From NCBI GenBank assembly GCA_029882975.1, contig JAOUJW010000003.1, forward strand, positions 1 to 64,000: a DNA stretch of 64,000 nt, written 5' to 3'. This document shows, one piece after another, positions 19,487 through 45,066 of this stretch. Numbering within the stretch: position 1 is the stretch's first letter; each line of letters opens with the position of its first letter. The notes beneath the pieces are model-generated. The model searched no databases and was not told where the DNA came from. It saw nothing but the letters and a program-made list of their open reading frames with translations. The position numbers and the translations under genes were made by a program. This DNA comes from Gammaproteobacteria bacterium. Lineage in GTDB: Bacteria > Pseudomonadota > Gammaproteobacteria > SZUA-152.

Positions 19487-19488
19487 GT

Positions 19489-20766: not shown

Positions 20767-20893
20767 GACTGCCTCAGTGGTAAATGGCACAGTATATGAC
20801 AAACTTTCCTATTTTACCTTAACGTCTGCTTCTGTTTTTGCTTAAGCGGTGTGGGTGATTAGGTCGATTTGGTTAAAAAACACCCTGTTGTTT

Positions 20894-23998: not shown

Positions 23999-24000
23999 CC

Positions 24001-25212: not shown

Positions 25213-25276
25213 AGTCAGGCCAGCGTAAGGGATTACGTGGGTTGTAATGTTTTGCGTAGTGAGGGGCGGTTAGAAA

Positions 25277-25699: not shown

Positions 25700-25702
25700 G
25701 CA

Positions 25703-26182: not shown

Positions 26183-26242
26183 ACAACGGGTCTTGTGAGT
26201 TAAGTGGTATGTAGCAATGACTGCAGTAAAAGGCAAAGTACA

Positions 26243-26620: not shown

Positions 26621-27363
26621 AATCTGTAACGCAGCTTCGGTTACCGAAGCGGTTGGTATCAAACTCCGGGTTCACGCTCGTAGAAGTGATGCTGTCAATC
26701 AGTTTGTTGGCGACATTGCTGGTACTGGTGTTCGCCGGCATGCGTTTTGTTACCACCGCTTGGGATAAGGGGGTAAGGAAATACAATGGGCACAATGAGG
26801 TCTATATGGCGCAAAACTGGTTACGCCGCACATTTGCTGCAGTGCCGGCGCTGTTGCTGGACGCCGGCGGATCTCCCGTCGATTCGAGAGAGGTGCCGCA
26901 ATATGTAGCGTTCGAGGGCAGCGCACAGAAAATGCGGTTCGTGGCTACTTTGCCGCATCATTATGGCGGTGGAGGTTTGCATGTACTGGAGTTGGATGGG
27001 CAAGGCGGAGTGGACAAAGCTCAACTGTTGCTCAGCACTCGATTGTTACCGCTGGGCAGTAAGGGTTTATTCCAGTCAGTCAGCACTCCAGCCACTGAAT
27101 CGGAAGTGCTTTTGACAGACATTGTTGAAGCCAGGTTCAGCTATCTTGGTGAAGACGTCACGGGTCAATGGCGTTGGCAGGAAACCTGGAGCGGGCGAGA
27201 TATTTTGCCTTATCAAGTGCGCATCGACTTGCAGCTTAAATCAGGGGTTTCCTGGCCGGGGTTTGTGGCAACGTTACATAGCGACGGCAAACGCGGGCCG
27301 GCCCGAGTGCCGGGTTTGTCACTTGGATGCAGTGGTACTATAAGTGCTGGGTGGTATGGGTAG
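26617..27363 (+). CDS. gspJ: Minor pseudopilin GspJ
   Basis: 248 residues with a prepilin signal GFTLVEVMLSISLLATLLVLV. The globular part has the family-like QNWLRRTFAAVP and VRIDLQLKSGVSWPGFV strands. It overlaps gspI by four bases. With GspI and GspK it forms the pseudopilus tip. Confidence 0.88.
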   Translation: MKSVTQLRLPKRLVSNSGFTLVEVMLSISLLATLLVLVFAGMRFVTTAWDKGVRKYNGHNEVYMAQNWLRRTFAAVPALLLDAGGSPVDSREVPQYVAFEGSAQKMRFVATLPHHYGGGGLHVLELDGQGGVDKAQLLLSTRLLPLGSKGLFQSVSTPATESEVLLTDIVEARFSYLGEDVTGQWRWQETWSGRDILPYQVRIDLQLKSGVSWPGFVATLHSDGKRGPARVPGLSLGCSGTISAGWYG

Positions 27364-27408
27364 TATGGGGCAGCGGTATACAAATGGTTTGGGATCAGTG
27401 AGATCGTG

Positions 27409-28335
27409 ATGGGTCAAAAAGGTACGGCCTTGGTTATCGTATTGTGGGTGGTCGCTCTATTGTCCATGGTCTCGCTGGGTTTTAGTAAATCCATGAGCCT
27501 GGAAAGTCGGTCCACGGGCAACCTGCTGGCAGCAGCGCGGGACCAATATCACGCGGAGGCGGGGCTGAATCAGGCTTTATTGGTGTTATTGCAGATGCGA
27601 CAGGGGCAAATGCGACAGGTACAGGCACAGCATCAGTTCCCATGGCATGCGGATGGACAGGTTAGACAAATGCAGTATAAAGATTCGCAGCTGAGTGTGT
27701 CCGTGTTAGACGAGCGCGCCAGAATCGATCTTAATTATGCTCCGGTGGTGCTGTTGCAATCCTTATTGGTTAATGCCGGGGTATCGGAGGCAAAAAGTAC
27801 GGAATTGGCGCACGCTATTGCGGACTGGCGAGATTCGGACCACGTGGCTCACGCGCAGGGGGCGGAAGACGATGCTTACGCCGCTTCCGGGCTGGATTAC
27901 GGCGCTAAGGATGCTCCGTTTCAATCCGTTGCCGAGTTATTGTTGGTCCGCGGTATGACCACGCAAGTGTACCATTCTGTCCAAGATTCATTGACCGTTT
28001 ATTCAGGGCAAAGTATGGTCAGCAGTCAATATGCATCGGAACAAGTACGTCGAGCCATGCATTCCGTCGGTTTGAGCGTGAGCCAGGCGGCTGTTAAATC
28101 GCTTACAGCGACGAATGTAGTGTCCATAACGTCAGCATTGACTCAGCCGCACGCAGTCGAGCAATCAAGGAATGGTTCAAGTACCGGCACCATGGTGACG
28201 CGCGGAGGTATTAAAGCTGTGGTGCGCTTACACGGTGCGCCGCAGTGGTCCTATTCTGTTTTGGAGTGGCAACCGTTGGCAAAACCGTGTTTGATTATTG
28301 CGAACAGATTTAACTGTAATGAATATGAAAGCTGA
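27409..28335 (+). CDS. gspK: Pseudopilin GspK
   Basis: About 308 residues. N-terminal pseudopilin segment GTALVIVLWVVALLSMVSLGFSKS, in which the usual Glu5 is absent as in other GspK proteins. Saf-Nte/SAM-like region: DERARIDLNYAP and ELAHAIADWRDSDHVAHAQGAED, then PFQSVAELLLVRGMT. Large tip subunit of the pseudopilus. A GTG directly before the ATG at 27409 is the alternative start. The end overlaps gspL. Confidence 0.9.
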   Translation: MGQKGTALVIVLWVVALLSMVSLGFSKSMSLESRSTGNLLAAARDQYHAEAGLNQALLVLLQMRQGQMRQVQAQHQFPWHADGQVRQMQYKDSQLSVSVLDERARIDLNYAPVVLLQSLLVNAGVSEAKSTELAHAIADWRDSDHVAHAQGAEDDAYAASGLDYGAKDAPFQSVAELLLVRGMTTQVYHSVQDSLTVYSGQSMVSSQYASEQVRRAMHSVGLSVSQAAVKSLTATNVVSITSALTQPHAVEQSRNGSSTGTMVTRGGIKAVVRLHGAPQWSYSVLEWQPLAKPCLIIANRFNCNEYES

Positions 28336-29494
28336 ATCCATTCGAATGAGCTTAAACAGTTCCCGGCTTTGGGGGGAGCTTAGTCGTTTTTTCCGGTGGT
28401 GGCTCCAGGAACTGGAAGGAGTATTCGGATCCTTGCTGGGTGCCATAACGACATCAACACCCGGTATTGAAGTGCAACCTCAACACGACGGCTGGATTTT
28501 TGAGGTTCGCCGGGGCGTCACGCAGGGAGCTAAGCCCAATCTGTTTCTGGATTCCCTGCAATCGACAAGGAATCAGCAACAACTGCTGGATTGGATGGCC
28601 GAGCAAGGTATTGCTGCTGCGCCATCGGGTTCGAGCGGGTATTGCCTGCGCCCCTCGGCTGATCACTGTCTGGTGAAAAGCATTTCCTGGCCCGCTGCCG
28701 TGGCTCAAAATCTGGATCAAGTTATTAGCTATGAAATGGATCGGCATACCCCTTTTAGTGCTGATCAAGTTTATTACGATTATGTGGTATTGGATCAAAA
28801 CAAACCGACGCAGGCAGGTGCCGGGCAGGTACGGGTTTGTTTGGCGTTGGTGCCCAAGGCTTATCTCGATCCTCTTTTGGAGCAATTGCGGGTGCTGCCA
28901 GGGGAAGTATGCGCGGTTACGGTACCCCGATTCGACAATGTGGCGGAAGAAGTGGCGGTAGCGTTGCCGGGCTTGAATTTGTTGCCAACAAAGCCGCGCT
29001 CCAAACAACAAAGAAGCAGTCGTCGACTAGATGCCCTGCTGTTGTTGCTGGTTTCGGTTTTGCTGCTTAGTATTGTGGTGGTTCCCGGCATGCAACTGGA
29101 GCGTGCCAATACGGTTTTAAGTGATCGGTTACAAGCATTACGGGTACAAGTAAAAGAAATCAACCAAATGCGCCAGGACTTGCAGCACTATCAAACTGGC
29201 CTGCAGTTATTGGTGGAGCAAAAGCGCAATGAGGTGCATGTGTTGCAACTGATGACCGCGTTAAGCAAAGCATTACCGGATAATACCTGGCTGGAGGAGT
29301 TGTGGATCGAGAAGAACCAGGTGCAAATGCGGGGGCAGTCCGAAACGGCATCCTCTATACTCGCGGTGCTGGAATCGTCGGCATACTTCAGTCAAGTGCG
29401 CTTTGCCTCGCCACTAACGCAAAACAGTGCCAATCAGTACGAGCGTTTTCATATTGTAGCAACACGGGTTCCTAAAGGGGGTTCCGGTGGCTAA
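28319..29494 (+). CDS. gspL: GspL-like assembly protein with PilN-type C-terminus
   Basis: About 391 residues. The N-terminal cytoplasmic part is actin-like (VISYEMDRHTPFSADQVYYDYVVL), as in PilM/GspL. One membrane helix (LLLLLVSVLLLSIVVVPGM, ~245-265) is followed by a periplasmic PilN-like coiled coil and ferredoxin-like domain (LMTALSKALPDNTWLEELWI). It links the GspE ATPase to the platform. ATG 28319 lies inside the end of gspK, and fits better than a TTG 21 bases upstream. Confidence 0.87.
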   Translation: MNMKAESIRMSLNSSRLWGELSRFFRWWLQELEGVFGSLLGAITTSTPGIEVQPQHDGWIFEVRRGVTQGAKPNLFLDSLQSTRNQQQLLDWMAEQGIAAAPSGSSGYCLRPSADHCLVKSISWPAAVAQNLDQVISYEMDRHTPFSADQVYYDYVVLDQNKPTQAGAGQVRVCLALVPKAYLDPLLEQLRVLPGEVCAVTVPRFDNVAEEVAVALPGLNLLPTKPRSKQQRSSRRLDALLLLLVSVLLLSIVVVPGMQLERANTVLSDRLQALRVQVKEINQMRQDLQHYQTGLQLLVEQKRNEVHVLQLMTALSKALPDNTWLEELWIEKNQVQMRGQSETASSILAVLESSAYFSQVRFASPLTQNSANQYERFHIVATRVPKGGSGG

Positions 29495-30107
29495 GCTCAG
29501 TGTACCCGGTGACGCTGGACAAAGAAAATTCCTGGCGATGGCATTGCTTGGTATGTTTCTATCGGCTGTATACCTACTTCTGGTTTATCCTATGCAGGAG
29601 CAGTATACAGAATTGGAGCAGCGTCATGCTCGCTTATTACAGCAACTCGTCCGCTATGATCAAGCCTTGGCTATGCGTGAATCCTACCTGGAACAAATCA
29701 ATACACTCAATACCGATAAAGCGCTGCTGGAGTATTTCCTCGAAGAGAGTACGGCAGAACTGGCGTCGGCGTCCTTGCAGCAAAAAATAAAACAAATTAT
29801 TCAAAAAAATGAAGCTCGCCTCAACAGCAGTCAGATGCTTGTTTCCAATGCCACAGCCAAGCAGGCGTTGTCTCTATACCCGGTAACCTTAAAGGTGGTT
29901 ATGAAGGCGGATATGCGGGCGATGCAGCGTATTTTCTATGAACTGGTCAATGCCAGGCCGGTTTTGTTTGTTCATGATGTGAATATTAAAAGCCATGGAA
30001 ATCGACGTTTTCTGCAAACCACCGACGGAACGCAAATGCTGGATGTGGTGTTTCAATTAACGGCTTATATGCGACCGCCAATGCCGCAAGGGAAAGAGGA
30101 GAGCTAG
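29487..30107 (+). CDS. gspM: GspM/PilO-like inner-membrane protein
   Basis: 206 residues. One N-terminal membrane helix (FLAMALLGMFLSAVYLLLV), a coiled coil (residues ~35-100), then a ferredoxin-like domain (YPVTLKVVMKADMRAMQRIFYELVNARPVLFV). This is the PilO/GspMb layout, partner of GspL. GTG start at 29487 overlaps gspL by eight bases. Assigned by architecture and operon position. Confidence 0.82.
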   Translation: MAKLSVPGDAGQRKFLAMALLGMFLSAVYLLLVYPMQEQYTELEQRHARLLQQLVRYDQALAMRESYLEQINTLNTDKALLEYFLEESTAELASASLQQKIKQIIQKNEARLNSSQMLVSNATAKQALSLYPVTLKVVMKADMRAMQRIFYELVNARPVLFVHDVNIKSHGNRRFLQTTDGTQMLDVVFQLTAYMRPPMPQGKEES

Positions 30108-30109
30108 GT

Positions 30110-30688
30110 ATGTCTGTGCTCCGATCAGTATTGCTCATGACGATGGCGCTGTTACTGGCTGTTCTGTATTACCAGGTTCAGAAAACCGGCGTTATGTCAG
30201 AAGATGGTGTTTTGGTTGCGCAAGATCAGCTTTTGAGCGGGCAAAAAAAATCGAAAACTAAGATCGGTAACCATGGGGACGGTAATTATTCGGTGGGCAG
30301 TAAAGTGGGAAAACCGCAGCAGCGTATGTTGGGGGTGGCTTCCCCTATTTATGCTTATCGAGAAATGGTTGAAAGACCCTTGTTCAGCCAGAGTCGTCGA
30401 CCAGAGGCTCGCGTTGATGCATCGGTGTCGTCAAATGAACCACTAAAACCGGTGAATTTGGATGCTTTTCCCTGGCAGCTTAGCGGTATTTCCATTAAGG
30501 GTAAGAACAGAGCTGCTTTGATTTGGCACAAAAGTTTACGGCAGTCTTTTACGGTGAATGAAAGGGATAGTGAGCAGGGATGGACTATCAGGAAAATTTT
30601 AGCGGATTCGGTGGTGATGCAGGAAAGGGATAATGCAACCAATAAAGTAGAGTTATATTTGAGGGGGCCGGTACAGTTGGCAAAGTAG
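30110..30688 (+). CDS. GspC/GspN-like periplasmic component with HR-type domain
   Basis: 192 residues with an N-terminal membrane helix (LLMTMALLLAVLYY), a flexible basic linker, and a C-terminal beta domain: PLFSQSRRPEA, PWQLSGISIKGKNRAALIW, GWTIRKILADSVVMQ, ELYLRGP. This is the homology-region fold of GspC and short GspN proteins, which contacts the secretin N0 domain. There is no PDZ domain, and no other gspC in the operon, so this gene probably supplies the GspC role. Two bases separate it from gspM. Confidence 0.75.
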   Translation: MSVLRSVLLMTMALLLAVLYYQVQKTGVMSEDGVLVAQDQLLSGQKKSKTKIGNHGDGNYSVGSKVGKPQQRMLGVASPIYAYREMVERPLFSQSRRPEARVDASVSSNEPLKPVNLDAFPWQLSGISIKGKNRAALIWHKSLRQSFTVNERDSEQGWTIRKILADSVVMQERDNATNKVELYLRGPVQLAK

Positions 30689-30727
30689 CTGCGGAATAAC
30701 GTAGTGGTGGCTTTACCGCGATGTGTG

Positions 30728-33031
30728 ATGAAAATACAAAATCAATTGGGTTTATGGCGAAAAATTTATTTGAACAAAGCTTGGCCGGCCTGGGAGGGTT
30801 CCTTTGCTATTTTGCTAGTTTGGGGGTTGCAGGGTTGTGGTGTGACTGCGGGCGTAACATCGCCACTGCAAGCACTGCAACCACAACAACCGCAGGTGGG
30901 TATTTCCTTGGCGCAAGAAAACGCAAATCAAGAGCACATGCCGGGCGGCAGGCCGGATCAAAGTCGGTCGTTACAAGATAGTCTGATTTCAGGGACGGGC
31001 GTTTTTCTGAATTCGCAGTTCCGGGATGCTGGAAATTCCGTGCGCCACGGTAAAAAAGGTGGCGTGACACTGAATTTTGAAAAAGCGGATATTAGCAAAG
31101 TTGTGGACATGATGTTGGGGAATCTGCTCAAGGTGAATTATTTTGTCGACCCGGCAGTGCGGGGAAGTGTGACCCTGCAAACATCCCGCCCCATTCGCGA
31201 TGCCGATGTGCTGCCCATACTGGAGAATATTCTTAAAACCAATAATGCCAAACTACTGCATAGTAACGGTTTATATCAGATTGTTCCCGAAAAAAGTCAT
31301 ACTGTTGCCAGCGCCGGTCTGGGGAGGCGCGCAGTCGGTGCCGGTACCGGTTTGCACATTCTGCCTCTGCGTTATATCGGTGCAGAGCAGATGGCGGCAG
31401 TGTTGCAACCGTTGGCAGATAAAGGTGCCGCGGTTATCGTGGATAAAGACCGCAACTTGCTCATGTTGGAAGCTTCGGCGCAGGACTTGAGTGTTATGTT
31501 GGAACTGGCGGATATGTTTGATGTGGATTGGCTCCAGGGTATGTCGATTGCTTTGTTGCAGGTGAGGCACGCCAGTGCGGAGACTTTGGTTAAGGAGTTG
31601 GACGGTATCTTTCTGTCTCAAAGTAAACAATCTCCGCTCAATGGGGTTTTACGCTTTGTGCCAATAGAGCGACTCAACGCTATACTGGCAATCAGTACCC
31701 AAGGTCAGTACCTGGGGCGAGTGCAGGAGTGGCTGCAGCGTTTGGATGTGCCGGGTAGCGGCGAAGGCGAGCAATTGTTTGTCTATCCAGTGGAAAACGG
31801 AAACGCGGCCGATCTCGCCGGCACTTTGAACGAGTTGTTTGCCGATGTGGGTGCAGTGCCGGCGTCAGGGAAGAATGAATCCACTGCGGATTTGGCTCCA
31901 GGCCTGAAGCCCGTAACGTTGTCCAGTCTCGGAGAAACGGCTGCGGCTAAACCGCCAGCGGTCCCGGCATCGCAGCAGAGCAGCGCTCCGATGCAAGGAG
32001 CCGAAAAATCCGTCGGTGTGGTGGCTGCCGTAGGCGGTCACATCCGAATCATGGCGGCCAAGGATAACAATGTGTTGCTCATACTGGCCAGTCCGTCTGA
32101 TTATTCCCGCATTGAGACCGCCATCAAAAAACTGGATGTGGCGCCATTGCAGGTGTTGGTTGAGGCCTCAATCATTGATGTGCGCTTGAGCGGTGAGCTG
32201 AACTATGGAATGCAGTGGTTTTTCAACAACCGTTTGGGGAGCAACTACAGTGGCGACGGGTCTGTTGGGGGCGCGTTGTCCTTTTCACCCACGTTTAGTT
32301 ATAACGTGGTAAATCGTAGTGATCAGTTACGCAGCCTGTTAGGGTTGTTGGCCTCCGACGGTAAAGTCGATGTCTTATCATCCCCAAGCCTGATGGTACG
32401 TAACAATCAAACGGCCAATATTCGAGTAGGTGACCAACAGCCTGTTTCCACCGCCTTGGTGTCCGCAGAAGGTAAAGTCGTGGCGTCATCGGTTCAGTTC
32501 AAGGATACCGGGGTGCTGTTGGAGGTGACGCCGAGAGTGAATTCAGGTGGTATGGTTTCTTTGGATGTTATTCAGGAAGTGACCGACGTGGGCGATATTG
32601 ACGAAGCCACAGGACAGCGAGCTTTTCTGCGCCGTTCCATTCAAAGTACGGTGGCGGTGAACAGCGGTGAGACCGTAGTGCTGGGAGGCTTGATTCGGGA
32701 AAACAAGGTGCAAGGTAAAACCGGTGTACCGGTGTTGCGGGACATTCCTTTTTTAGGGTGGTTGTTTGGTAAAACCATTACCAGTACCAGTCGTACCGAG
32801 CTGTTGATTATGCTCACGCCCAAAGTTATTCGTAATAGCAGTGAAGCCAGACGTGTAACGGCAGAGTACCGCCAAAAATTGCGCTATATTGAATCCAGTT
32901 TACCGCCGCCATCAACAATAAACACCGGGGTTGCTCCTGCGGCTTTGCAACGGGATTCGAAAAATACCGCTATACAAGCTACGGATATACAGAGTGCGGA
33001 TAGGCAAAGCGAGAAAACGTTGGGGCAGTGA
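30728..33031 (+). CDS. gspD: Type II secretion secretin GspD
   Basis: About 767 residues. Lipoprotein-like signal ending LVWGLQGC, so the secretin may carry its own lipid anchor. N0/N1 domains begin at VTLNFEKADISKVVDMML, N2-N3 with LLMLEASAQDLSVMLELADM and PIERLNAILAIS, an Ala/Pro/Ser-rich insertion (~385-440), then the secretin core with VRNNQTANIRVGDQQPV, ETVVLGGLIRENK and PVLRDIPFLGWLFG. The C-terminus is a hydrophilic tail. Placement last in the operon is unusual compared with the classical gspC-D-E order. ATG 30728 is preferred over the upstream 30704 start. Confidence 0.92.
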   Translation: MKIQNQLGLWRKIYLNKAWPAWEGSFAILLVWGLQGCGVTAGVTSPLQALQPQQPQVGISLAQENANQEHMPGGRPDQSRSLQDSLISGTGVFLNSQFRDAGNSVRHGKKGGVTLNFEKADISKVVDMMLGNLLKVNYFVDPAVRGSVTLQTSRPIRDADVLPILENILKTNNAKLLHSNGLYQIVPEKSHTVASAGLGRRAVGAGTGLHILPLRYIGAEQMAAVLQPLADKGAAVIVDKDRNLLMLEASAQDLSVMLELADMFDVDWLQGMSIALLQVRHASAETLVKELDGIFLSQSKQSPLNGVLRFVPIERLNAILAISTQGQYLGRVQEWLQRLDVPGSGEGEQLFVYPVENGNAADLAGTLNELFADVGAVPASGKNESTADLAPGLKPVTLSSLGETAAAKPPAVPASQQSSAPMQGAEKSVGVVAAVGGHIRIMAAKDNNVLLILASPSDYSRIETAIKKLDVAPLQVLVEASIIDVRLSGELNYGMQWFFNNRLGSNYSGDGSVGGALSFSPTFSYNVVNRSDQLRSLLGLLASDGKVDVLSSPSLMVRNNQTANIRVGDQQPVSTALVSAEGKVVASSVQFKDTGVLLEVTPRVNSGGMVSLDVIQEVTDVGDIDEATGQRAFLRRSIQSTVAVNSGETVVLGGLIRENKVQGKTGVPVLRDIPFLGWLFGKTITSTSRTELLIMLTPKVIRNSSEARRVTAEYRQKLRYIESSLPPPSTINTGVAPAALQRDSKNTAIQATDIQSADRQSEKTLGQ

Positions 33032-33083: not shown

Positions 33084-33725
33084 CTAAACGATTCCGTGCT
33101 GCTTGGCTGCCAGCGCGGCCTGAGTACGGTTGCGGACATGCAACTTAGCCAAAATGGAGCTGACATGAAATTTGACAGTGGTTTCGCTGATCAGTAGCTT
33201 TTTACTGATGTCGCGGTTACTGTTGCCAGTGGCCAGAAATCTTAAAATTTCTATTTCACGTTTGCTTAGAGGTTCTTCGCCGATAGGTTTCTTGGTGCCG
33301 GCACGCATATGTGCCGCCAGTTTGGCTGCAACGAGGGGGTCTAAATAAGTCCCTCCTTCTTGTACTACCCGAATGGCCTTGATTAATTCTCGATAATCGG
33401 ATTTTTTTAGCAAATACCCGCAAGCTCCTTGCTCCAAGGCGTTAACAATAGTTTTTTCATCTTCCAGTGTCGTGTAGACGATCACTTTGGGTTTTTGGGG
33501 TAATGAATGGAGGTTGGACACAGCCAGTAGATAGTTGGGGTTGGCTGCGTCCAAAATAACGACATCAGCCTCAAATTTCTTAGCGTGGCGGCTCAGTTCC
33601 ACAGCGCAAGGCGTCTGGGCAAGCACCGTAACGTCGGTTTCCTGCTCCAGCATATGTGTCAATCCATAACGAACAATGGAATGTTCGTCGCAAATAATGA
33701 TGCCTACTGTACCGTCTGTACTCAC
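33084..33725 (-). CDS. NarL/FixJ-family response regulator
   Basis: 213 residues: receiver domain (IIICDEHSIVRYGL, phospho-Asp in VVILDAANP, Thr and Lys in VYTTLEDE and GYLLKKSDY) and LuxR-type helix-turn-helix (LSKREIEILRFLATGNSNRDISKKLLISETTVKFHVSSILAKL). GTG start at 33725 with GAGGGGGAAAA upstream. No sensor kinase is adjacent, so it is an orphan. It is tail to tail with the T2SS operon and divergent from the giant oxidase gene across 740 bases, which makes it a candidate regulator of either; this is inference. Confidence 0.9.
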   Translation of the reverse strand: MSTDGTVGIIICDEHSIVRYGLTHMLEQETDVTVLAQTPCAVELSRHAKKFEADVVILDAANPNYLLAVSNLHSLPQKPKVIVYTTLEDEKTIVNALEQGACGYLLKKSDYRELIKAIRVVQEGGTYLDPLVAAKLAAHMRAGTKKPIGEEPLSKREIEILRFLATGNSNRDISKKLLISETTVKFHVSSILAKLHVRNRTQAALAAKQHGIV

Positions 33726-34465: not shown

Positions 34466-37400
34466 ATGAATAGCGGCGTAGGAGGTAAACGCGCGTCAAA
34501 GCATTTGCTATTGACGGCAGCGTTAGGGGTGAATTTGTTCGCGGTGGCGGGAGTGGCGCAGTCCGCTGTCACCTGCGGGCGTACAGTGGTGGCAAATGTG
34601 GTGGCCATAGACCAACCGGTGATGTTTAACCGACTGGGGGCTTCCAACATCAACGGTATGATATACGCACTGGAGCGGGATGTGGTGCTTGCCGGGGGCG
34701 TGGAAATGTTACGCCCGGACAAACGTCCACGTCCTTTGGTGTTACGTGTTCGTACAGGCGATTGTTTGACTGTAAACCTGCGTAACGGTTTACGCGTAGC
34801 CAATCCCAATCAGCCGCCGATAAACATACCACCTTTGTTCAACACCTTGATAAACAATCAGGTGGCGGATCGGCATGTGAGCATGTTTGTAACCGGCATG
34901 CAATACATGAACGGCCCCGATGCGGATGACGGCGCATTTGTTGGCAACAATGCCGACAATACCGTACCGCAGGGTGGAACTAAAACCTATACCTTGTATG
35001 CCGAGAAAGAAGGCGCTTTTGCTATGCGAGGCATGGCCACAACGGTAGGCTCCGACGCCAACCAGGGCAACGCGGCCAACCTGCTGTTTGGCTCTGTTAT
35101 CGTGCAACCGAAAAATTCGGCTATTTACCGCAGCCAGATAACCCAAGAGGAAATGCGTTTGGCCTCTTTGGATTTGAACCCGGCTTCGCCCACTTGCGGT
35201 GCGCAAAACCAGACACCCGCCGGTCATCCTGTGATTGACTATGAAGCCCGTTATCCGGCGGCAAACTGCAACACCGTTGTGGCCGGTGGCACGGGCGCGA
35301 ATCTGGGAGCGGATGTGTGGGTGGCCGAAGGTAAAGCCGGCTTGCCCGTGGTCAATATGATCAATGTGGCAAACAGCGAAATCGTCCACTCGGAAATTAA
35401 CGCTTTTGTTGGTTACGGTCCCAGCGGTGCTCTGTCTGCTCCGAATACCGGTCCCCATGTGGGCCAGATGGGCCACTATCCACCGGACACCTATCCCTTG
35501 GAGTCTGTAGGTAAACGCAACCCTACCGTACCCAATCGTCTGGAGCCGTTCCGGGATTTTGCTTCCATCTTCCATGATGAGCCGGCAACCAAGCAGGCGT
35601 TCCCCGGTTTTTATGAACCCGGTGCAGTGGGCGGCAGTGATGTGTTTCGTTATGTACTGGCCGGAGTTAAAGACGGTTTTATGATTAACTACGGTTCCGG
35701 CGGTATTGGTTCGGAGATTCTGGCCAACCGATTGGGCGTTGGCCCCATGCACGATTGTTTGACCTGTGCCTATGAAGAATTTTTCTTAACTTCCTATACC
35801 GTGGGTGATCCGGCTATGTTGGTGGATATTCCCGCCAACTTTGGTCTGGAGGCGTGTAATCCGGCGGGTTTGGGCGGAGCCGCTTGTGCGGCTACCGGTC
35901 CTAAAGCCACTAAAGCGTTATATACGGAAGACCCTTCCAATGTACATCACAGTTACACCGGGGACTTTACCAAGTTCCGTAATGTGCACGTGGGTGCGGA
36001 ACAGCATGTGTTCCATTTGCACAACCACCAATGGTTGTACAACCCCAATGATGATAACTCCAACTATCTGGATGCCCAGGGCATAGGTCCCGGCGCCGGT
36101 TATACCTATGAAATCAACTTTGGCGGTTCCGGTAACCGTAACAAAACCTCCGGTGACGCCATATTCCACTGTCACTTCTACCCGCACTTTGCCCAGGGTA
36201 TGTGGTATCACTGGCGTAACCACGACACCTTCGAAGCGGGTACGGAACTGCAAACCAGTGTCACCGGCGGTGGTTTCCACGTACCGTTTACCCAAGACGG
36301 TTTAGGTTTGGGTGACGGTACGCCCGCGCCGGGTGCCCGAGCTTTACCGGATGCGGAAATCGTGGCCGGTGCGCCCATTCCTGCCCTGGTACCGCTGCCG
36401 GGTAAAGCTATGGCGCCCATGCCCGGTGCCGTATCCCTTAAACCCAATCCGCTGTTAGTCAACGTGATTGATCCCGGTACCGGTGCTGTCGTGGGCCAAC
36501 AAAATGCGGGTAGTTTGGCGGATGTGGCTCGACCTTTGACGGTAAACCCCGGATATCCTTTCTGGGTGGCGGGTATCGAAGATATCGTAGGGCAACGGCC
36601 GCCTACGCCACCGCTGGATATGGCCAGTGCAGCAGATGTGGCTGCGGCCAAAGCACAAAACCCCGGACTGTTCGCCAATTTGGTGGACACACAAGCCGGT
36701 GGTTGGGACGGCGGTCTGCCTCGCGCTGCCTTGCAGGGTTACGCGGCCGGTGGTGCGGATCTCGCCAATGTGATTTCTCCCATCGACTTCACCAAAGCCG
36801 TAGGTAAGGCTCAGGCGGTGTTTTATCCTGAAGCCGGTACCGACGTGGAACAACTGGCTATGGCAACTCACGGTAAACGTTGTCATGATACGTACATGGC
36901 AGATGGGTCTGCGGCTACCTGTGCCGATCCCGGCGCCAATGAAGGTGGCTTTATCCTTAACGGCCAACTGCCCGCAATCGGCGCTCCGTTTAACGAGCCC
37001 TGTGTGGATGACCTCGGTCAGCGTTTGGGGAACGGTTCCAATCCCATGTTCTTTAACGCAGCGTTGACGACAGCCGGTAGTGCGGCGGGAATGAGTTCTT
37101 TCGGTTCCAGTCCTTTTAATGCGGATAATCCCCGTATTTATAAAGGTGCGAACATTCAATACGACGCCGTCTTGAACAAAGTGGGTTACCACTATCCTCA
37201 GCAACGTATTATTGCTCTGTGGGAAGATGCGGTGCCCATTATCACCAAAGCCAAACCGGGTGAGCCCCTGGTTATGCGTCTGAATACTTTTGATTGTGCC
37301 GTATTCCAACACACCAACCTGGTACCGGAAGTGTATGAAGCGGACGATTATCAAGTGCGTACGCCTACCGACATTATCGGTCAGCACATTCACTTGCCTA

Positions 37401-40400
37401 AGTGGGATTTGACCACGGCTGACGGTTCCGCCAACGGTTGGAACTACGAAGACGGTACTTTGTCTCCCGGTGCGGTGCAGGAGCGTATCCATGCTCTGAA
37501 CTGTTTCGTGGATGCGGCTGATTGTCCCGCCGGTGTGGCCGGTGGCGGTGGAGCCCATTTGGTGGGTTCCGGTTCCGACGGTTTGACGGCGCCGACTCAC
37601 TTAAGTGCTAAAGCCCATCCGTATTTTGCCGGTGTCGCTCCGGCGCAGTTGGCTTCCCATTGGGTTGGAGCACGTACCACCTTGCAGCGTTGGTTTGCAG
37701 ACCCGGTGGTGAATACCGATGGCGAAGATCGCGGTCTGGGTATTATTTTTACCCACGACCACTACGGCCCATCCACCCATCAGCAAGTGGGATTGTACGC
37801 CACCGTATTGGTAGAGCCGGCCGGTTCTGCTTGGGCGCACAACGAAACCGGTGAGCCTTTGTATACCCGTCCTGACGGTGGTCCCACATCCTGGCAGGCG
37901 ACCGTCATTCCGCCCGCCAACAGTAACGTGGCACCTTTCCGTGAGTTCTACTTTGAATACGCCGACTTCCAGCATGCCTATGAAGCGGGTGTCTATGTGG
38001 GTGCAGGCCAACTGGGTGAGCAATTACCCGGTGTGGGTCCCGGAGCCGGTGTAAAAGTGGCTAACTTGGGTAATCCGGACTTTGATAACAATCCGATTAA
38101 TGCCTTCCGTTTTGCCATCAATCCTCCGGCGCGGGTACAGCACTTCCCGGTAATGCCGGATTTGGTATTGGAAGCGGCCGGTGGTCATCCCGATGCGCCC
38201 GGATGCCCGGTCCGTCCTTGTCCGCAGGCTATCGACGTTCAAGACCCGGGTATGATGGTGGTGAACTATCGTAACGAGCCTTTGGGTTTGCGTGTTTACG
38301 ATCCCAACAAGATCGGTCCGGATGGCAAGCCCGGAATGCAGGCGGATGGTCCTGAAGGTGATCTGGCTCTGGCTATGTTGTCCCGTACCGATCGCGTGAT
38401 TCCGCAGCTGAACGTGCAACCCGATGCCAACACGGTCATTAACGGTACCCGTTTCCCACCGCCCATTAACGCGGCCGGTGTCAATCCGGGTGATCCCTTC
38501 ACACCCATGGTTCGTGCTTATACCGGGGATGTGGTGCGAGTGAAAATGCAGGCCGGTGCTCATGAAGAAGAGCACAATGCCACCATTCACGGTTTGAAAT
38601 GGTTGCAGGCCGGTTCCGGCCACGGTCGTGCCGGTAACTCCGGTTGGCGCGGCGCCCAGGCCGGTGGCATTTCCGAGCAGTTTACCTTGGCTATCCCGCC
38701 GGTACCGGTACAGGGTAATCGCGGTAACAGCAATGATTACGCCTACAGCATGGATTACTCTCATGACGGTATGTGGAGTGGTATGTGGGGTATCCTACGC
38801 GCTTACAACAATGCTCAGGATGCTTTAGTCCAACTGCCCACCACGGTTACACCGGTCAAAATTGCCAATGCCGCCGACTTTGACGGGCCTTGCCCGATTA
38901 ATGCGCCGGTACGTAATTTTGATATCACTGCCTTGCTGGCTAACACCGCGCTGCCGGATAACCCTGACGTGGGTGTGAATGGCAATATCGTTGATCCGTC
39001 GCCTTTGAGTGCCGCCGGTCTGCCGACAGACCACGTCGGTACGGTGCCTTTGGATCCGGCGGGTGGCTCTTTGGTGTATAACAACCGTGCGGGTGCTTTG
39101 GGTCAAGGACCGATTCATGATCCGACGGCGATCCTGTACTTCCACTCCAGTGATTTGGTGCCCATTGATCCTACCGACAACAACTGTCTCGCAGGCAACG
39201 GCAACAATCGCGTGGTGGATGCCAATCAGATCAACTGTCCGGTACGCCTGGCGGCTGGTAAACCGGTCGAGCCTTTGGTTATTCGTGCAGCGGCCGGTGA
39301 GTGTATTGAAATCACCCTGCGCAATAAATTGCCGCCGTTAACTCGCGCGGTTAATTTTGCCACCGGTCGTGCCAGTGGTACGCCGGTCAATGCCGGGGTT
39401 CCCGATCTGGCCACCTTAAGCAGCTTGTTGGGTGTGGTGAAACGTGATCGCTTCAATCCTTTAGGGGCGACCACCTTCCAGACCAACTTGATTCGCGCTT
39501 CCGGCTATATCGGCCTGCATCCGCAAATGATGGCCTATGATGTGAGTCGTCATAACGGCGTGCAAGTGGGTGAAAATCCCAACTCCTTAACGGCGCCGGG
39601 TCAGGTGAGCCAACGTATTCGCTGGTATGCCGGGGATTTGTCTCACACTGCCGATGGCAATCAATTTACCTTGAATGCCACACCGGTGGAGTTTGGAGGT
39701 GCTAATATCCAGCCGGTCGACCCCATTAAGCAAGGGCAAAAAGCCCTGGTGGGTACCACGGTGGTTGAGCCGCAAGGCGCTACTTGGGTGGAAGACGTGG
39801 ATCTGGCTACATGCGGTCAACCGGGTGAACCGCGATGCACTCGCACCGGCGCTACGGTAAATAATAGTTACCGTGACTTCTCCCTGGTAATTTCCAAAGC
39901 GCTGACCCACTACTATGCCGACGGTACACCGGTGGAACACATCAACGGTGAAGGGATGGGTATACCGGAAGACAGCCAGGACGCCAGTGCCATGTCCATG
40001 AACTACGGCATTGAGCCTTTGTGGTTCCGCTTCGGTATTTTGCCCAACGTGGATTTTGGTAACGCCACGGCCTTGGGAACCTTTGGTGCACAAACCCAAT
40101 TTGACGTGTTCTCCAACGCCAAAGTGGGTGGTGATCCGGTGACTCCGGTATTTGTCGCCAATGCCGGTCAACCGACCCGTATTCGCGTGACCAACGCTTA
40201 CGGTACTTCGCGAGGATCTACGTTCTACCTGCACGGCCATGTGTGGCAGCGTGATCCCTACGTCTGTGCCGGGACCAAGGATAATATCCCCGGACGTTGT
40301 TCCACGACCGAGGTTGGATCAACCGCCATTGGCGACAACAAGCAGGCGTTCTATCAAGGTGCTCAGGAAAGTATTGCCCCTGGAACGCACTTTGATGTGG

Positions 40401-40510
40401 TCCTGCCCAGTGCCGGTGGCGCTAATGCCAAACCGGGTGATTACAAGTTTGGTGACTTTGCCGCTCCCGGTAATGCCTCCGGCTTGTGGGGTATTCTCCG
40501 CGTCAAGTAG
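34466..40510 (+). CDS. Giant exported multicopper oxidase (MnxG/McoA-like)
   Basis: About 2014 residues with signal peptide (LLLTAALGVNLFAVAGVAQSA). Start 34466 has GGAGG seven bases upstream. Repeated cupredoxin strands, such as TGDCLTVNLRN (~97), PGEPLVMRLN (~932), TGDVVRVKM (~1354), AGECIEITLRN (~1610) and AGQPTRIRVTN (~1902), indicate at least five to seven cupredoxin domains. Copper motifs: HVFHLHNHQW (His 514/517/519/521), the type-1/trinuclear motif HCHFYPHFAQGMW (His568, Cys569, His570, His574, Met579), HIH (~974), THDHYG (~1097), HEEEHNATIH (~1366) and HGHVW (~1923). Size and motif order resemble large Mn(II)-oxidising oxidases of Pseudomonas; substrate is not provable here. Visible preference for CGT, GGT, AAC, TTC and TAC codons suggests high expression. 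A terminator follows, so it is probably monocistronic. Confidence 0.88.
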   Translation: MNSGVGGKRASKHLLLTAALGVNLFAVAGVAQSAVTCGRTVVANVVAIDQPVMFNRLGASNINGMIYALERDVVLAGGVEMLRPDKRPRPLVLRVRTGDCLTVNLRNGLRVANPNQPPINIPPLFNTLINNQVADRHVSMFVTGMQYMNGPDADDGAFVGNNADNTVPQGGTKTYTLYAEKEGAFAMRGMATTVGSDANQGNAANLLFGSVIVQPKNSAIYRSQITQEEMRLASLDLNPASPTCGAQNQTPAGHPVIDYEARYPAANCNTVVAGGTGANLGADVWVAEGKAGLPVVNMINVANSEIVHSEINAFVGYGPSGALSAPNTGPHVGQMGHYPPDTYPLESVGKRNPTVPNRLEPFRDFASIFHDEPATKQAFPGFYEPGAVGGSDVFRYVLAGVKDGFMINYGSGGIGSEILANRLGVGPMHDCLTCAYEEFFLTSYTVGDPAMLVDIPANFGLEACNPAGLGGAACAATGPKATKALYTEDPSNVHHSYTGDFTKFRNVHVGAEQHVFHLHNHQWLYNPNDDNSNYLDAQGIGPGAGYTYEINFGGSGNRNKTSGDAIFHCHFYPHFAQGMWYHWRNHDTFEAGTELQTSVTGGGFHVPFTQDGLGLGDGTPAPGARALPDAEIVAGAPIPALVPLPGKAMAPMPGAVSLKPNPLLVNVIDPGTGAVVGQQNAGSLADVARPLTVNPGYPFWVAGIEDIVGQRPPTPPLDMASAADVAAAKAQNPGLFANLVDTQAGGWDGGLPRAALQGYAAGGADLANVISPIDFTKAVGKAQAVFYPEAGTDVEQLAMATHGKRCHDTYMADGSAATCADPGANEGGFILNGQLPAIGAPFNEPCVDDLGQRLGNGSNPMFFNAALTTAGSAAGMSSFGSSPFNADNPRIYKGANIQYDAVLNKVGYHYPQQRIIALWEDAVPIITKAKPGEPLVMRLNTFDCAVFQHTNLVPEVYEADDYQVRTPTDIIGQHIHLPKWDLTTADGSANGWNYEDGTLSPGAVQERIHALNCFVDAADCPAGVAGGGGAHLVGSGSDGLTAPTHLSAKAHPYFAGVAPAQLASHWVGARTTLQRWFADPVVNTDGEDRGLGIIFTHDHYGPSTHQQVGLYATVLVEPAGSAWAHNETGEPLYTRPDGGPTSWQATVIPPANSNVAPFREFYFEYADFQHAYEAGVYVGAGQLGEQLPGVGPGAGVKVANLGNPDFDNNPINAFRFAINPPARVQHFPVMPDLVLEAAGGHPDAPGCPVRPCPQAIDVQDPGMMVVNYRNEPLGLRVYDPNKIGPDGKPGMQADGPEGDLALAMLSRTDRVIPQLNVQPDANTVINGTRFPPPINAAGVNPGDPFTPMVRAYTGDVVRVKMQAGAHEEEHNATIHGLKWLQAGSGHGRAGNSGWRGAQAGGISEQFTLAIPPVPVQGNRGNSNDYAYSMDYSHDGMWSGMWGILRAYNNAQDALVQLPTTVTPVKIANAADFDGPCPINAPVRNFDITALLANTALPDNPDVGVNGNIVDPSPLSAAGLPTDHVGTVPLDPAGGSLVYNNRAGALGQGPIHDPTAILYFHSSDLVPIDPTDNNCLAGNGNNRVVDANQINCPVRLAAGKPVEPLVIRAAAGECIEITLRNKLPPLTRAVNFATGRASGTPVNAGVPDLATLSSLLGVVKRDRFNPLGATTFQTNLIRASGYIGLHPQMMAYDVSRHNGVQVGENPNSLTAPGQVSQRIRWYAGDLSHTADGNQFTLNATPVEFGGANIQPVDPIKQGQKALVGTTVVEPQGATWVEDVDLATCGQPGEPRCTRTGATVNNSYRDFSLVISKALTHYYADGTPVEHINGEGMGIPEDSQDASAMSMNYGIEPLWFRFGILPNVDFGNATALGTFGAQTQFDVFSNAKVGGDPVTPVFVANAGQPTRIRVTNAYGTSRGSTFYLHGHVWQRDPYVCAGTKDNIPGRCSTTEVGSTAIGDNKQAFYQGAQESIAPGTHFDVVLPSAGGANAKPGDYKFGDFAAPGNASGLWGILRVK

Positions 40511-40584
40511 AGCGTGAGAACAACGTTTGTCGAGAGCATACTGAGTTGAAATGAATCCGAAAAAACTCGGTTGAAGTACAACGG

Positions 40585-40621
40585 AAGACGCAGTTCCTTT
40601 GGGACTGCGTCTTTTGTTTTT
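40585..40621 (+). terminator. Strong intrinsic terminator after the oxidase gene
   Basis: Perfect ten-base stem AAGACGCAGT / ACTGCGTCTT, extended by TCC·GGG around a TTT loop, followed by a T-rich tract (TTTTGTTTTT). It separates the oxidase transcript from the operon starting at 40725. Confidence 0.92.
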
Positions 40622-40724: not shown

Positions 40725-42701
40725 ATGTCCAAGTTTGCGCATGCTGCCGGCTTGCTGAGTATGGCAGTGGTGCTGACCATCTCTGCTCAGTCCTTGGCAT
40801 CTGACAACGGTCCTGTTAAAGACCAGTTTACCAAGAAAGGCGTCAATATCGATTTTGAAATGGAGCCGTTACAAGCCAACACCCGGCTTATGGAGGGTGA
40901 GTCCGCCCGGGTGCGATTCCGTTTAAGTAGTAGCAGTAACGGCGATCCGGTGAAAGGTGTCACCCCAGGCGTGTGGATGGATATGGGTCAGCTCATACAG
41001 GGTAAGAAAGGCCAGCAAAAATCCTGCAAGGAAAAAATCGCGCTGTATTTAAAGGGCGTTGTGGGCATTCGCCCCATGTTGGATTTAAACAGTTACTTTG
41101 TGTTGGTGATGAATACCGAACCCAGCATTTCCGTGGTGGACCCTTTGGTTTCCATGGTAGGACAAACCAGCACCTTGACCAGCATTCGTTTGAAAGGCGT
41201 GCCCTCGGATTGGGTAAAATCCAAAGATGATAAACGTTTGTACGTGAGTATGCCCGGTACGGATATGGTGGCTTTGGTGGACACGGACAATTTCAAAGTG
41301 AGCACCAATATCAACGCCGGCTCGAATCCTACCCGCGTTATATTACAACCCGACGAGCGCTATTTGTGGGTGGGAAATGACGGTGATGGCAAAACCAGCG
41401 GCGTCACAGTGATCGATACACAGAGTAATAAACCGGTTAAAACCCTGCATACAGGCAGCGGTCACCATCAAATCGTTTTTTCCGGGGACAGCCGCTATGC
41501 TTTCGTCAGTAATCGCAACAACGGCTCAGTAACGGTTATCGACAGCCAGACCCTGAAAACGGTTAAAACCATAAAAACCGGTCCTTTACCCATTGCCATG
41601 GCCTACTCCTCTTTGGCTGATGTGGTGTATGTCTCCGACGGCAAATCGGGAGAGGTGGCGGTGATCGATCCCAACTCCCTGAAGATGAAACAGCACATCC
41701 AACTGAAGCCGGGGCTGGGGCCGATTAAGTTTTCTCAGGACGGGCGTTGGGCGATGGTGGTGAATCCTTCAGCGGAAACACTACACATTATTGATGCGGC
41801 CAATGCCCGAGCGGCACATCATGTGGACGTGCCGGGTAAGCCCTATCAAGTAACGTTCAGTCGCGCCTTCGCCTATGTGCGGGCTTTGGAAAGTGAACGG
41901 GTAACCATGATTAATCTAAGCAGTTTAGCGGACCGGGATCATCCCATTGTCCAGGGTTTCGCTGCCGGTTCCAAAGCGCCGGCTTTGGCAGGGCGGTTAC
42001 CTCTGGCGGATTCTATGATGGCAGCTACTACCGAAGCGGCTTTGTTTGTAGTGAATCCTACTGACAATACCACTTACTTCTATATGGAGGGCATGAACGC
42101 GCCGTCCAGTAACTACAAGGTGCGTGGTTCGCAAGCGCGAGCGGTTACGGTGATCGACCGAAGCTTGAAAGAGATACAACCGGGTCTGTATGAAACAGTG
42201 GTTAAACTGCCGGCATCCGGCCGCTACGATGTGGCCTTTCAATTGGAAACACCCAATGTGTTGCATTGTTTTTCCGCCGAGGTGGTGGAAAACCCGGCTA
42301 TAGAAAAACATCGAGTGGCCTTGGGAATTGAGTTTTTGTCAAACCGCCGAACGGTTCAAACCGGCGAAACTTTGCCCTTACGTTTCCGCTTGCAGGATGC
42401 CAAGTCCGGTAAACCCAAATCCGGTTTGAAGGATGTGACAGTGCTCATGTTCCGCGCTCCCGGTTCTGAGCGTGTCGAGTTGGTTGCAACACACAAGGGT
42501 GATGGAGTCTATGAGGTGATGCTGCCCATTCGCACCGCCGGTGCGTATTATATGCATGTGTCCAGTCGTTCCAGTGATGTCAATTACAATGATCTCCCGT
42601 ATTTTTCAGTGATTGCTCGTCCGGCTAAAACCGCGGGTAAGCAATCGGCTGTAACGGTACCGCATTTGGCTCAAGTAAGTTCAGACGCAGGGAGTCGGTG
42701 A
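40725..42701 (+). CDS. Periplasmic YncE-like beta-propeller protein with flanking Ig-like modules
   Basis: 658 residues, signal peptide ending near SLASDN. The N-terminal ~35-100 and C-terminal ~545-640 segments are related beta-sandwich modules (ARVRFRLSSSSNGDPV and LPLRFRLQDAKSGKP, FixH/YtkA-like). Between them a seven-bladed propeller is indicated by repeats such as VTVIDTQSNKPVKTL, VTVIDSQTLKTVKTI and VAVIDPNSLKMKQHI. A conserved Cys (KSCKEKI) and another (VLHCFSAE) could bind metal. There is no haem motif. GGGGGG precedes the ATG. First gene of a five-gene operon; probable partner or scaffold of the oxidase or cytochrome, not an enzyme that I recognise. Confidence 0.78.
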   Translation: MSKFAHAAGLLSMAVVLTISAQSLASDNGPVKDQFTKKGVNIDFEMEPLQANTRLMEGESARVRFRLSSSSNGDPVKGVTPGVWMDMGQLIQGKKGQQKSCKEKIALYLKGVVGIRPMLDLNSYFVLVMNTEPSISVVDPLVSMVGQTSTLTSIRLKGVPSDWVKSKDDKRLYVSMPGTDMVALVDTDNFKVSTNINAGSNPTRVILQPDERYLWVGNDGDGKTSGVTVIDTQSNKPVKTLHTGSGHHQIVFSGDSRYAFVSNRNNGSVTVIDSQTLKTVKTIKTGPLPIAMAYSSLADVVYVSDGKSGEVAVIDPNSLKMKQHIQLKPGLGPIKFSQDGRWAMVVNPSAETLHIIDAANARAAHHVDVPGKPYQVTFSRAFAYVRALESERVTMINLSSLADRDHPIVQGFAAGSKAPALAGRLPLADSMMAATTEAALFVVNPTDNTTYFYMEGMNAPSSNYKVRGSQARAVTVIDRSLKEIQPGLYETVVKLPASGRYDVAFQLETPNVLHCFSAEVVENPAIEKHRVALGIEFLSNRRTVQTGETLPLRFRLQDAKSGKPKSGLKDVTVLMFRAPGSERVELVATHKGDGVYEVMLPIRTAGAYYMHVSSRSSDVNYNDLPYFSVIARPAKTAGKQSAVTVPHLAQVSSDAGSR

Positions 42702-43681
42702 TGGCCTTGAAGATTTTCCGCAACTTAGTATCTCTAGGGTTGGCGGTCTCGCTTTTGGCGTCAACAAGCGTATCTGCCGATTCCGCGCTGGGGCTCGCGG
42801 CTAAGGTCAATGGTGTGGCTATTAGCGCGGCGTTGTTGGAGCGTAGTTTCGAGGAATACTTGCGGGACAATAACATTAACGTCGCTTCGATTCGCTATCC
42901 AAAACGTCTTAAAGAGTTTAAAAAAGAAGTGTTGGATTTGCTCATTGATGCTGAATTGCTGTGGCAGGAGGCCAACAAGACCGATACGGTGGTTACCGAC
43001 TCGGAGGTAGAAACAGCGGTGGCGCGAGTAAGACAGCAGTTTAAGTCCGATGATGATTTTGCCCGTAAGATATCTGCAGAAGGTTATACCAAGGAAAGCT
43101 ATTTTCACCATGTCAAACGAATGGTTACGGCACGAAGTTATCTGGATCGCATTCGCCAACAGGCTCAGGAACCGACTCAGGAGCAGGTGCATCAGTTTTA
43201 CGTGGATAATCCGGAAAAATTTAATATGCCACCCCTGGTCAGGGCTCGACATATATTGCTGCAAACCAATGCAACCATGGATGAAAAGCAATTGCAGCAA
43301 ATAAAAGCCAAGGCGACGGAACTGGCTGACAAAATCCGCAAGGGTGCCGATTTTGCTGCTTTGGCGCGGGAGCACAGTCAGGATAAAAGTGCTGCACAAG
43401 GTGGTGATTTGGGCTACTTCCCTCGCGGACAAATGGTGAAACCATTCGAAGATGCTGTATTTGCGTTGAAACCGGGGCAGGTGAGCGATGTAGTGAAGAC
43501 GCGCTATGGCTTGCACATTGTTAAGCTGGAGGAGACGCGAGACGCGGCCAAAGTCAGCGAAGCAGATGCGACGGATCAAATTCGTGCATTTCTCGGTGCG
43601 CAAAATCTTCGTTTGCAGGAGCAAAAGGAAATTCAGCGATTACGCGGACAAGCACAAATCGAGGTCTATACCGTTTTATGA
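42701..43681 (+). CDS. Periplasmic parvulin-type peptidyl-prolyl isomerase (SurA/PpiC-like)
   Basis: About 326 residues: signal peptide (LAVSLLASTSVSA), SurA-N-like helical chaperone region (~30-160) and a PpiC rotamase domain (~180-290) with VRARHILLQTN, SQDKSAAQGGDLGYFPRGQMVKPFEDAVF and TRYGLHIVKLEE. The ATG overlaps the stop of the propeller gene (GTGATG), showing tight coupling. Likely helps fold exported partners encoded by this cluster. Confidence 0.92.
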   Translation: MALKIFRNLVSLGLAVSLLASTSVSADSALGLAAKVNGVAISAALLERSFEEYLRDNNINVASIRYPKRLKEFKKEVLDLLIDAELLWQEANKTDTVVTDSEVETAVARVRQQFKSDDDFARKISAEGYTKESYFHHVKRMVTARSYLDRIRQQAQEPTQEQVHQFYVDNPEKFNMPPLVRARHILLQTNATMDEKQLQQIKAKATELADKIRKGADFAALAREHSQDKSAAQGGDLGYFPRGQMVKPFEDAVFALKPGQVSDVVKTRYGLHIVKLEETRDAAKVSEADATDQIRAFLGAQNLRLQEQKEIQRLRGQAQIEVYTVL

Positions 43682-44328
43682 AATGGCAGAGTTTTATATT
43701 CTTGACGGTGAGTTTGCTGCCCTCGACGACACTATTTTCTGCTGAGGGTGATCATGCGGCGCATGAAAATCACAGCCATCAACACCATAAGAGTCAGCTA
43801 CAAAAAACACCTGAGCCGTTGATGGGGGAGTCTATCGAGCTTCCGGTTACCCAGCTGCTGACCCAGGAAAACCAAAGTGTCATGTTCCCGCAGGAGGTGT
43901 TGGCGGATCGTTTGGTGGTCATGGATTTTGTTTATACCACGTGCACCACCGTGTGCCCGGTTCTATCCGCTATTATGATCCAGGTGCAGGATAAACTGGC
44001 ATCACGGGTGGGGCAGGACGTGTCGTTGATTTCACTGACGGTGGACCCGATTCGAGATACGCCGCAACGCCTGGCGGCTTATAGTAAAAAACTCAGCGCG
44101 GGGTCAGGGTGGACCTGGCTCACCGGCGACAAAAATAATGTTGATAGGGTGTTAATAAGTTTGGGTGCCTACACCCCGAATTTTCAGGATCATCCCTCCA
44201 TGGTTATTGTAGGCGACCCGGTATCAGGGCAATGGCAACGGTTTTTTGGTTTTCCTAACCCCGATGAAATTGTTGCCGCCGTCAATCGATTGAACGCCAA
44301 GCGTAAATTGAGTCACCGACACGAGTGA
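43678..44328 (+). CDS. SCO1/SenC-family copper chaperone (copy A)
   Basis: 216 residues with signal peptide and a His-rich start of the mature part (GDHAAHENHSHQHH). SCO fold: copper-type motif CTTVCP (VYTTCTTVCPVLS) and distal His in QDHPSMVIVG, with SLTVDPIRDTPQRL. Overlaps the isomerase stop as ATGA. Probably supplies or reduces copper for the oxidase made upstream. Confidence 0.9.
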   Translation: MKWQSFIFLTVSLLPSTTLFSAEGDHAAHENHSHQHHKSQLQKTPEPLMGESIELPVTQLLTQENQSVMFPQEVLADRLVVMDFVYTTCTTVCPVLSAIMIQVQDKLASRVGQDVSLISLTVDPIRDTPQRLAAYSKKLSAGSGWTWLTGDKNNVDRVLISLGAYTPNFQDHPSMVIVGDPVSGQWQRFFGFPNPDEIVAAVNRLNAKRKLSHRHE

Positions 44329-44388
44329 GCCCAAAGAGTGCCAATAAGGTCGGTATGTAAAAATAGAGTGGTAAAAAAGGTTGTTAGC

Positions 44389-45066
44389 ATGACACAGACA
44401 CGAATTTATACATCTGCATTGTTGCTGGTTTTGTCGGTGGTTCCGACTTTAAGTGCTCACGAAGGCGAAAAGCATCAGGCTGCGCCGGCGGCTCCTATCA
44501 GTGAGTTTTCCGCCCAATCATTGCAAGAAGCTAATCGCATTCAAGTTCAAAAGGTAATACCGCCGGCAGCGGAAGTGGAGCGCGCCCGCAGCTATTTTAC
44601 CGATATGACTTTAACTACCCATACCGGCGAGCGGGTGAAATTCTACAGTGATATGTTGCACGGTAAAGTGGTTCTGCTCAATGTGATGTACACCCGTTGC
44701 AAAGATGCTTGCCCGTTGGTGACCCAGCACCTGTCCAAAGTCAAAGCCCAGTTGGGACCTTTGTTTGGTAAGGAAGTCTTTTTTGTGTCCATCAGTAACG
44801 ATCCCGGCCGTGACACACCGGAGGCGTTGCAGCAATTTGCAAAAAAACACCAAGCAGATCATCCCGGTTGGACATTCTTAACCGGGAATGCGGAGATGGT
44901 GAAACAAGTGGTTTCCAAGTTTGGCTTATATCCTGACGACATCGAAGCGCACAATCCGCTGTTGCTGGCGGGGAATACTCGAACCCGACATTGGTCCAAA
45001 ATCATTCCCAATACGCCGGTTCCCACCATTGCCATGAAGCTTCGGAATCTACTCCGCGAAGGTTAA
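44389..45066 (+). CDS. SCO1/SenC-family copper chaperone (copy B)
   Basis: About 225 residues. Signal peptide ends near LSAHEGEKHQ. Motif CKDACP (YTRCKDACPLVTQ) and SISNDPGRDTPEAL mark the SCO fold; the distal His is in EAHNPLLLAG, a divergent context. ATG 44389 fits the signal peptide; the longer frame from 44338 does not. Copy A lies immediately upstream, so tandem duplication and specialisation are likely. Confidence 0.88.
   Translation: MTQTRIYTSALLLVLSVVPTLSAHEGEKHQAAPAAPISEFSAQSLQEANRIQVQKVIPPAAEVERARSYFTDMTLTTHTGERVKFYSDMLHGKVVLLNVMYTRCKDACPLVTQHLSKVKAQLGPLFGKEVFFVSISNDPGRDTPEALQQFAKKHQADHPGWTFLTGNAEMVKQVVSKFGLYPDDIEAHNPLLLAGNTRTRHWSKIIPNTPVPTIAMKLRNLLREG

Follow-up and report, generated by a model that had tools for sequence, protein, structure and literature searches.

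The window analysed here (the whole stretch of DNA, 64,000 nucleotides) carries the gene of a giant multicopper oxidase (MCO) of the MnxG type, followed by five genes of a predicted mnx operon and preceded by a complete type II secretion system (T2SS) operon just 5' of mnxG (Table 1). As the earlier note had proposed, the giant open reading frame is real: it runs from ATG 34466 to a stop codon over 2014 codons (2014 aa), and an open frame of this length would arise by chance with a probability of ~2e-44 at the base composition of the window. In its longest extent (34373-40510) the same frame opens with TTG; ATG 34466 is the likely start, with a Shine-Dalgarno-like GGAGG immediately 5'. The signal peptide named in the same note could be recognised by eye as a Sec-type sequence covering approximately residues 1-33 (KR...LLLTAALGVNLFAVAGVAQSA).

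Furthermore, CGT makes up 55% of the arginine codons of mnxG versus 25% in the other genes of the window (p 2e-8), and GGT makes up 60% of its glycine codons versus 35% (p 3e-15), an enrichment that bears out the codon choice previously pointed to and that fits strong expression. The last four gaps of the operon measure -4, -4, 9, and 22 bases, and mnxG is separated from the next gene by 214 bases; because this gap contains a terminator-like hairpin, transcript levels of mnxG may exceed those of the remaining operon genes, and its codon use agrees with this.

In the vicinity of mnxG no MnxS/MnxR-like sigma-54 system was found, and the search for sigma-54 promoters upstream of the gene yielded no site, with fewer matches than expected by chance. 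Judging from these genes and promoters, regulation thus differs from that of Pseudomonas putida GB-1. Matches to sigma-70 promoters were at chance level. On the reverse strand, a PCu(A)C copper chaperone and a third SCO1 protein are encoded at 20894-22005, divergent from the T2SS operon.

Table 1. Genes, protein regions, and sequence elements of the mnxG locus (positions in the window).
Feature	Position	Strand	Basis or remarks
RegA/RegB-like two-component pair	18926..20802	-	RegA relatives (47-52%) adjoin mnxG in L036, L037, L040
T2SS operon gspE-F-G-H-I-J-K-L-M-(N/C-like)-D, 11 tightly spaced ORFs	22235..33031	+	NCBIfam, Pfam, position
NarL/LuxR-type response regulator, between secretion operon and mnxG	33084..33725	-	Relatives (38-44%) at the same place in L029, L093, L097
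mnxG-type MCO, 2014 aa, most likely six domains	34466..40510	+	NF041487 match 37-2013, 2183 bits
Predicted repeat 1 (residues 36-640): domains 1+2; domain 2 with putative type-1 copper and half of the trinuclear site	34571..36385	+	Limits approximate
HVFHLHNH (514-521): putative type-1 His514; trinuclear His517, His519	36005..36028	+	87/87; roles by MCO homology
HCHFYPHFAQGMW (568-580): putative trinuclear His568, His570; type-1 Cys569, His574, Met579	36167..36205	+	87/87
Predicted repeat 2 (residues 880-1460): domains 3+4	37103..38845	+	Alignment to Bacillus MnxG 9bxa, repeats; limits approximate
HIH (974-976), putative trinuclear ligands	37385..37393	+	87/87; aligned to HIH of 9bxa
HDH (1097-1099), putative trinuclear ligands	37754..37762	+	87/87; aligned to HDH of 9bxa
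Predicted repeat 3 (residues 1520-2014): domains 5+6, without conserved copper set	39023..40507	+	Repeat comparison; H1923 only 19/87
Terminator-like hairpin, 18 pairs, between mnxG and next gene	40580..40618	+	Consensus match only
YVTN beta-propeller with C-terminal YtkA/FixH-like domain	40725..42701	+	Near 77/86 relatives
SurA/PrsA-like periplasmic peptidyl-prolyl isomerase	42698..43681	+	Near 66/86 relatives
SCO1/SenC copper chaperone, copy 1	43678..44328	+	Near 73/86 relatives
SCO1/SenC copper chaperone, copy 2	44338..45066	+	Near 65/86 relatives
Periplasmic ligand-binding protein (Peripla_BP_6) with one CxxCH cytochrome c segment	45089..46648	+	Near 74/86 relatives

Copper sites and domains of the giant oxidase

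The 12 ligands of one type-1 copper and one trinuclear centre (H514, H517, H519, H568, C569, H570, H574, M579, H974, H976, H1097, and H1099) are all present and identical in 87/87 compared sequences, and they make up the motifs that define MCOs (HxxHxH, HCHxxxHxxxxM, and two more HxH motifs). By standard MCO homology, H514, C569, H574, and M579 would bind the type-1 copper, and the remaining eight histidines (H517, H519, H568, H570, H974, H976, H1097, and H1099) would form the trinuclear centre. The complete type-1/trinuclear motif that the earlier note had placed at residues 568-580 is exact and invariant in its ligands, and no part of the trinuclear set is missing from the sequence. As for the additional histidine clusters listed there, all the quoted residues were found; those at 514, 974, and 1097 are strictly conserved, but those at 1366 (HEEEH, 1366-1370, with H1366 in 67/87 sequences) and 1923 (HGH, 1923-1925, with H1923 in 19/87) are not, and are probably remnants, given this partial conservation. 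H574 is aligned with an alanine in the structure of Bacillus sp. PL-12 MnxG (PDB 9bxa), which is an H340A variant; from the entry title and the alignment, we infer that H574 is the counterpart of the deliberately mutated His340 of Bacillus MnxG.

The protein most likely consists of six cupredoxin domains forming three two-domain repeats, since its alignment with Bacillus MnxG is collinear and repeats can be recognised within the sequence, in keeping with the five or more cupredoxin-type strands initially read from the sequence. Profile comparison of three parts of the protein supported homology of repeat 1 to repeat 3 and of repeat 2 to repeat 3 (98% each), the homology of repeat 1 to repeat 2 being weak (76% probability). 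Partial AlphaFold models of residues 36-1180 and 1000-2014, built on a 19-sequence alignment, were of low confidence (mean pLDDT 44 and 56), with 9bxa as top structural match for both and ceruloplasmin second for residues 1000-2014. No cupredoxin domain was recognised in the protein by Pfam, whose one hit was unrelated and below threshold. In prokaryotic six-domain MCOs, among which PputGB1_2447 of GB-1 was analysed, the trinuclear site lies between domains 2 and 3, and a mononuclear site is found only in domain 2 (PMC3600357). Motif order and the 9bxa alignment assign the window protein to this class, domain 2 having motifs of the C-terminal type and domains 3-4 those of the N-terminal type.

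Family placement and known relatives

A single NCBIfam model matched the protein, MnxG (NF041487), from residue 37 to 2013 with 2183 bits, below the curated equivalog cut-off of 3100; two Pseudomonas relatives tested exceed this value (3871-3934 bits), and the nearest relatives, in L097 (Woeseiaceae OFTM88) and L036, are also under it (2312 and 2372 bits). Among solved structures, Bacillus MnxG 9bxa was the best match (E 7e-69), and its alignment is collinear over the length of the protein; two-domain laccases came next, with matches confined to the region around residues 496-580. When genome contigs were queried with the single sequence no relatives were obtained, and an alignment query returned 466, of which 79 were retained. 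A tree of 34 proteins groups the window MCO with that of OFTM88 (support 100) inside a seven-member clade with Burkholderiales (99), which is sister to a 17-member clade with Pseudomonas and Aromatoleum (union 100). Based on this sister position and the score under the cut-off, the protein is filed as MnxG-type, belonging in the tree to the sister clade of curated MnxG, and not as a member of NF041487. In another locus (L041 3538-15670), from a gammaproteobacterial MAG, two mnxG-like genes were observed in tandem.

Pseudomonas MnxG (PputGB1_2447 of GB-1) has ~1950 aa versus 2014 here and 48-50% blastp identity. Downstream of mnxG in GB-1 come genes for a YVTN propeller, two SCO1 proteins, a binding protein that has a cytochrome domain, and SurA (PMC11409713). 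All copper ligands and these five downstream genes are common to both, and gsp genes lie close by in many Pseudomonas strains; the window locus differs in its SurA gene, moved up in the operon, and in its complete T2SS operon on one side. The closest relative found, in OFTM88 (57% blastp identity, 63% over tree columns), has the operon order of the window (mnxG-propeller-SurA-SCO-SCO-cytochrome/binding protein) with a T2SS and a response regulator adjoining; a histidine kinase adjoins that regulator, whereas the window regulator has no adjacent kinase. Bacillus sp. PL-12 MnxG shares the six-domain order and has copper motifs at the same places; however, it is 20-24% identical, has ~1220 aa, and works with MnxE/MnxF in spores, without a T2SS. 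The McoA operon of P. putida, compared by operon content, differs from that of the window by its diguanylate cyclase and phosphonate-binding protein.

For the enzyme, the earlier note had offered two readings, a metal oxidase of the Mn(II) or Fe(II) type and a new copper enzyme. The full-length NF041487 match, the content of the six-gene operon, and the tree, which does not separate the protein from MnxG, support the MnxG branch of the former; the latter is not supported. This is a known enzyme type with known helper genes, not a new kind of enzyme, in a host that also has genes for carbon fixation and sulfur metabolism.

Nevertheless, the presence of a mnxG-like gene does not prove Mn oxidation. 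An enzyme of the same architecture could have Fe(II), Cu(I), or an organic compound as its physiological substrate and oxidise little or no Mn(II), as the sequence fixes the copper sites and not the substrate; identity to relatives is only 48-63%, the score is below the MnxG cut-off, and the genome has an MtrAB-type set able to handle iron. The whole content of the mnx operon has been retained, arguing for a retained function, and we regard such a change of substrate as unlikely.

Secretion operon and proposed function

Within the T2SS operon, GspE, GspG, GspM, and GspD were above curated cut-offs, and the other genes were below them or recognised by Pfam or position only. Another GspD above the cut-off lies on contig C13 of the same genome, so that the system of the window is the second one of this genome. 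At least one gsp-like gene was present near mnxG in 55/58 relatives with at least 7 kb of flank on both sides, a sample that is Pseudomonas-heavy; the three without it were two alphaproteobacterial plasmid loci and Anaeromyxobacter. The window GspE is 48-62% identical to the mnxG-linked GspE of G033, Woeseiaceae, Indioceanicola, and G154, versus 47% to the other GspE of its own genome; branches in the GspE tree are long, and its finer topology departs from that of the MCO tree. P. putida GB-1 needs a Gsp-related pathway to secrete its Mn oxidase (De Vrind 2003, cited in PMC3056050, PMC3798386, and PMC4509608), and the linkage of mnxG with gsp genes therefore has a known meaning and is expected. 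This Xcm pathway of P. putida is likewise a second T2SS, required for export of the Mn-oxidising factor, although in the GspE tree the window protein stands across a long branch from the mnxG-linked GspE of Pseudomonas. In this context, the T2SS beside mnxG is apparently dedicated to export of the mnxG product. In a search that covered mostly papers outside subscription, no published description of synteny between mnxG and secretion genes was found.

Taken together, we consider it likely that mnxG, as first gene of a six-gene mnx operon, encodes a MnxG-type Mn(II) oxidase exported by the neighbouring T2SS; its substrate, copper loading by SCO proteins, export route, and surface location are what we infer from the genes present. 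The protein would cross the inner membrane by Sec, fold with the aid of the SurA-like isomerase, receive copper from the two SCO proteins, and reach the cell surface by way of the secretin. At the surface, Mn(II) would donate electrons singly to the type-1 copper (H514, C569, H574, M579), from which they would pass to the trinuclear centre (H517, H519, H568, and H570 of domain 2; H974, H976, H1097, and H1099 of domains 3-4), where O2 would be reduced to water, with Mn(III/IV) oxide forming extracellularly. Few enzymes are known to form Mn(IV) oxide, MnxG-type oxidases being among them.

Host genome and metabolic setting

The host genome has 5.18 Mb, and no 16S rRNA gene is present in the assembly. 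Its HemE is 70% identical to that of Pseudomonas and 61% to that of Woeseiaceae, whereas the MCO is closer to Woeseiaceae; this mismatch, from one marker, and the presence of a mnxG-type gene in only 1/24 genomes of the host's family suggest that the gene was horizontally acquired. Such a restricted occurrence would also suit an acquired remnant that is non-functional or unexpressed, a reading of vanishing probability against the intact frame, all ligands, whole operon, and strong codon bias.

Two genes for RuBisCO large subunits lie on different contigs (L137 6810-8234 and L138 6017-7510), with ATPase-type neighbours resembling CbbQ/CbbO, and dsrA is also present. A DmsE/MtrA-type decahaem cytochrome, a MtrB/PioB porin, and a PdsA-like dihaem cytochrome are encoded in a row (L139 10425-14264; G000:C3 ~74425-78264), ~28 kb after the mnx operon, with the only MtrB of the genome. 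The two RuBisCO genes, dsrA, and the porin with its decahaem and dihaem cytochromes suggest that the host is an autotrophic sulfur oxidiser. No match to methane/ammonia monooxygenase was obtained in the host genome, where the control was equally silent. An animal-type haem peroxidase of ~529 aa is encoded in L142 (G000:C10 27178-28656); MopA is much longer than this.

On the reverse strand of the window (15435-18671), a lipoprotein-like protein of 1078 aa contains repeated units (cytochrome c domains) that together carry eight CxxCH motifs. With this octahaem protein, the MtrAB-type genes, and the T2SS linkage at hand, the oxidase could instead be a copper protein at the cell surface that takes part in extracellular electron transfer together with the nearby multihaem proteins, comparable to the multicopper protein of Geobacter sulfurreducens, which is secreted by an atypical T2SS and serves metal reduction (Mehta 2006, as cited in PMC11708043). 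We find this exceedingly unlikely, as no relative of the octahaem protein occurs near mnxG in the 86 relatives examined, and the full copper set of an oxidase is there and, in this architecture, reduces O2.

A wider reading, for a host that looks autotrophic, would join the mnxG operon and its T2SS with the octahaem protein and the MtrAB-type genes into one metal-oxidation region passing electrons from Mn(II)/Fe(II) to CO2 fixation, and Mn oxidation would then belong to energy metabolism. However, MnxG-type enzymes hand electrons directly to O2, so that Mn oxidation by such an enzyme alone would not conserve energy; hence, we hold this coupling to be very doubtful.

The NF041487 cut-off of 3100 bits misses a sister clade (the window protein, L097, and L036) that retains the full operon, and secretion genes travel beside mnxG in several proteobacterial lineages, making the export step testable beyond Pseudomonas. 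Moreover, the locus extends the MnxG-type family to a genome in which RuBisCO and dsrA genes occur.
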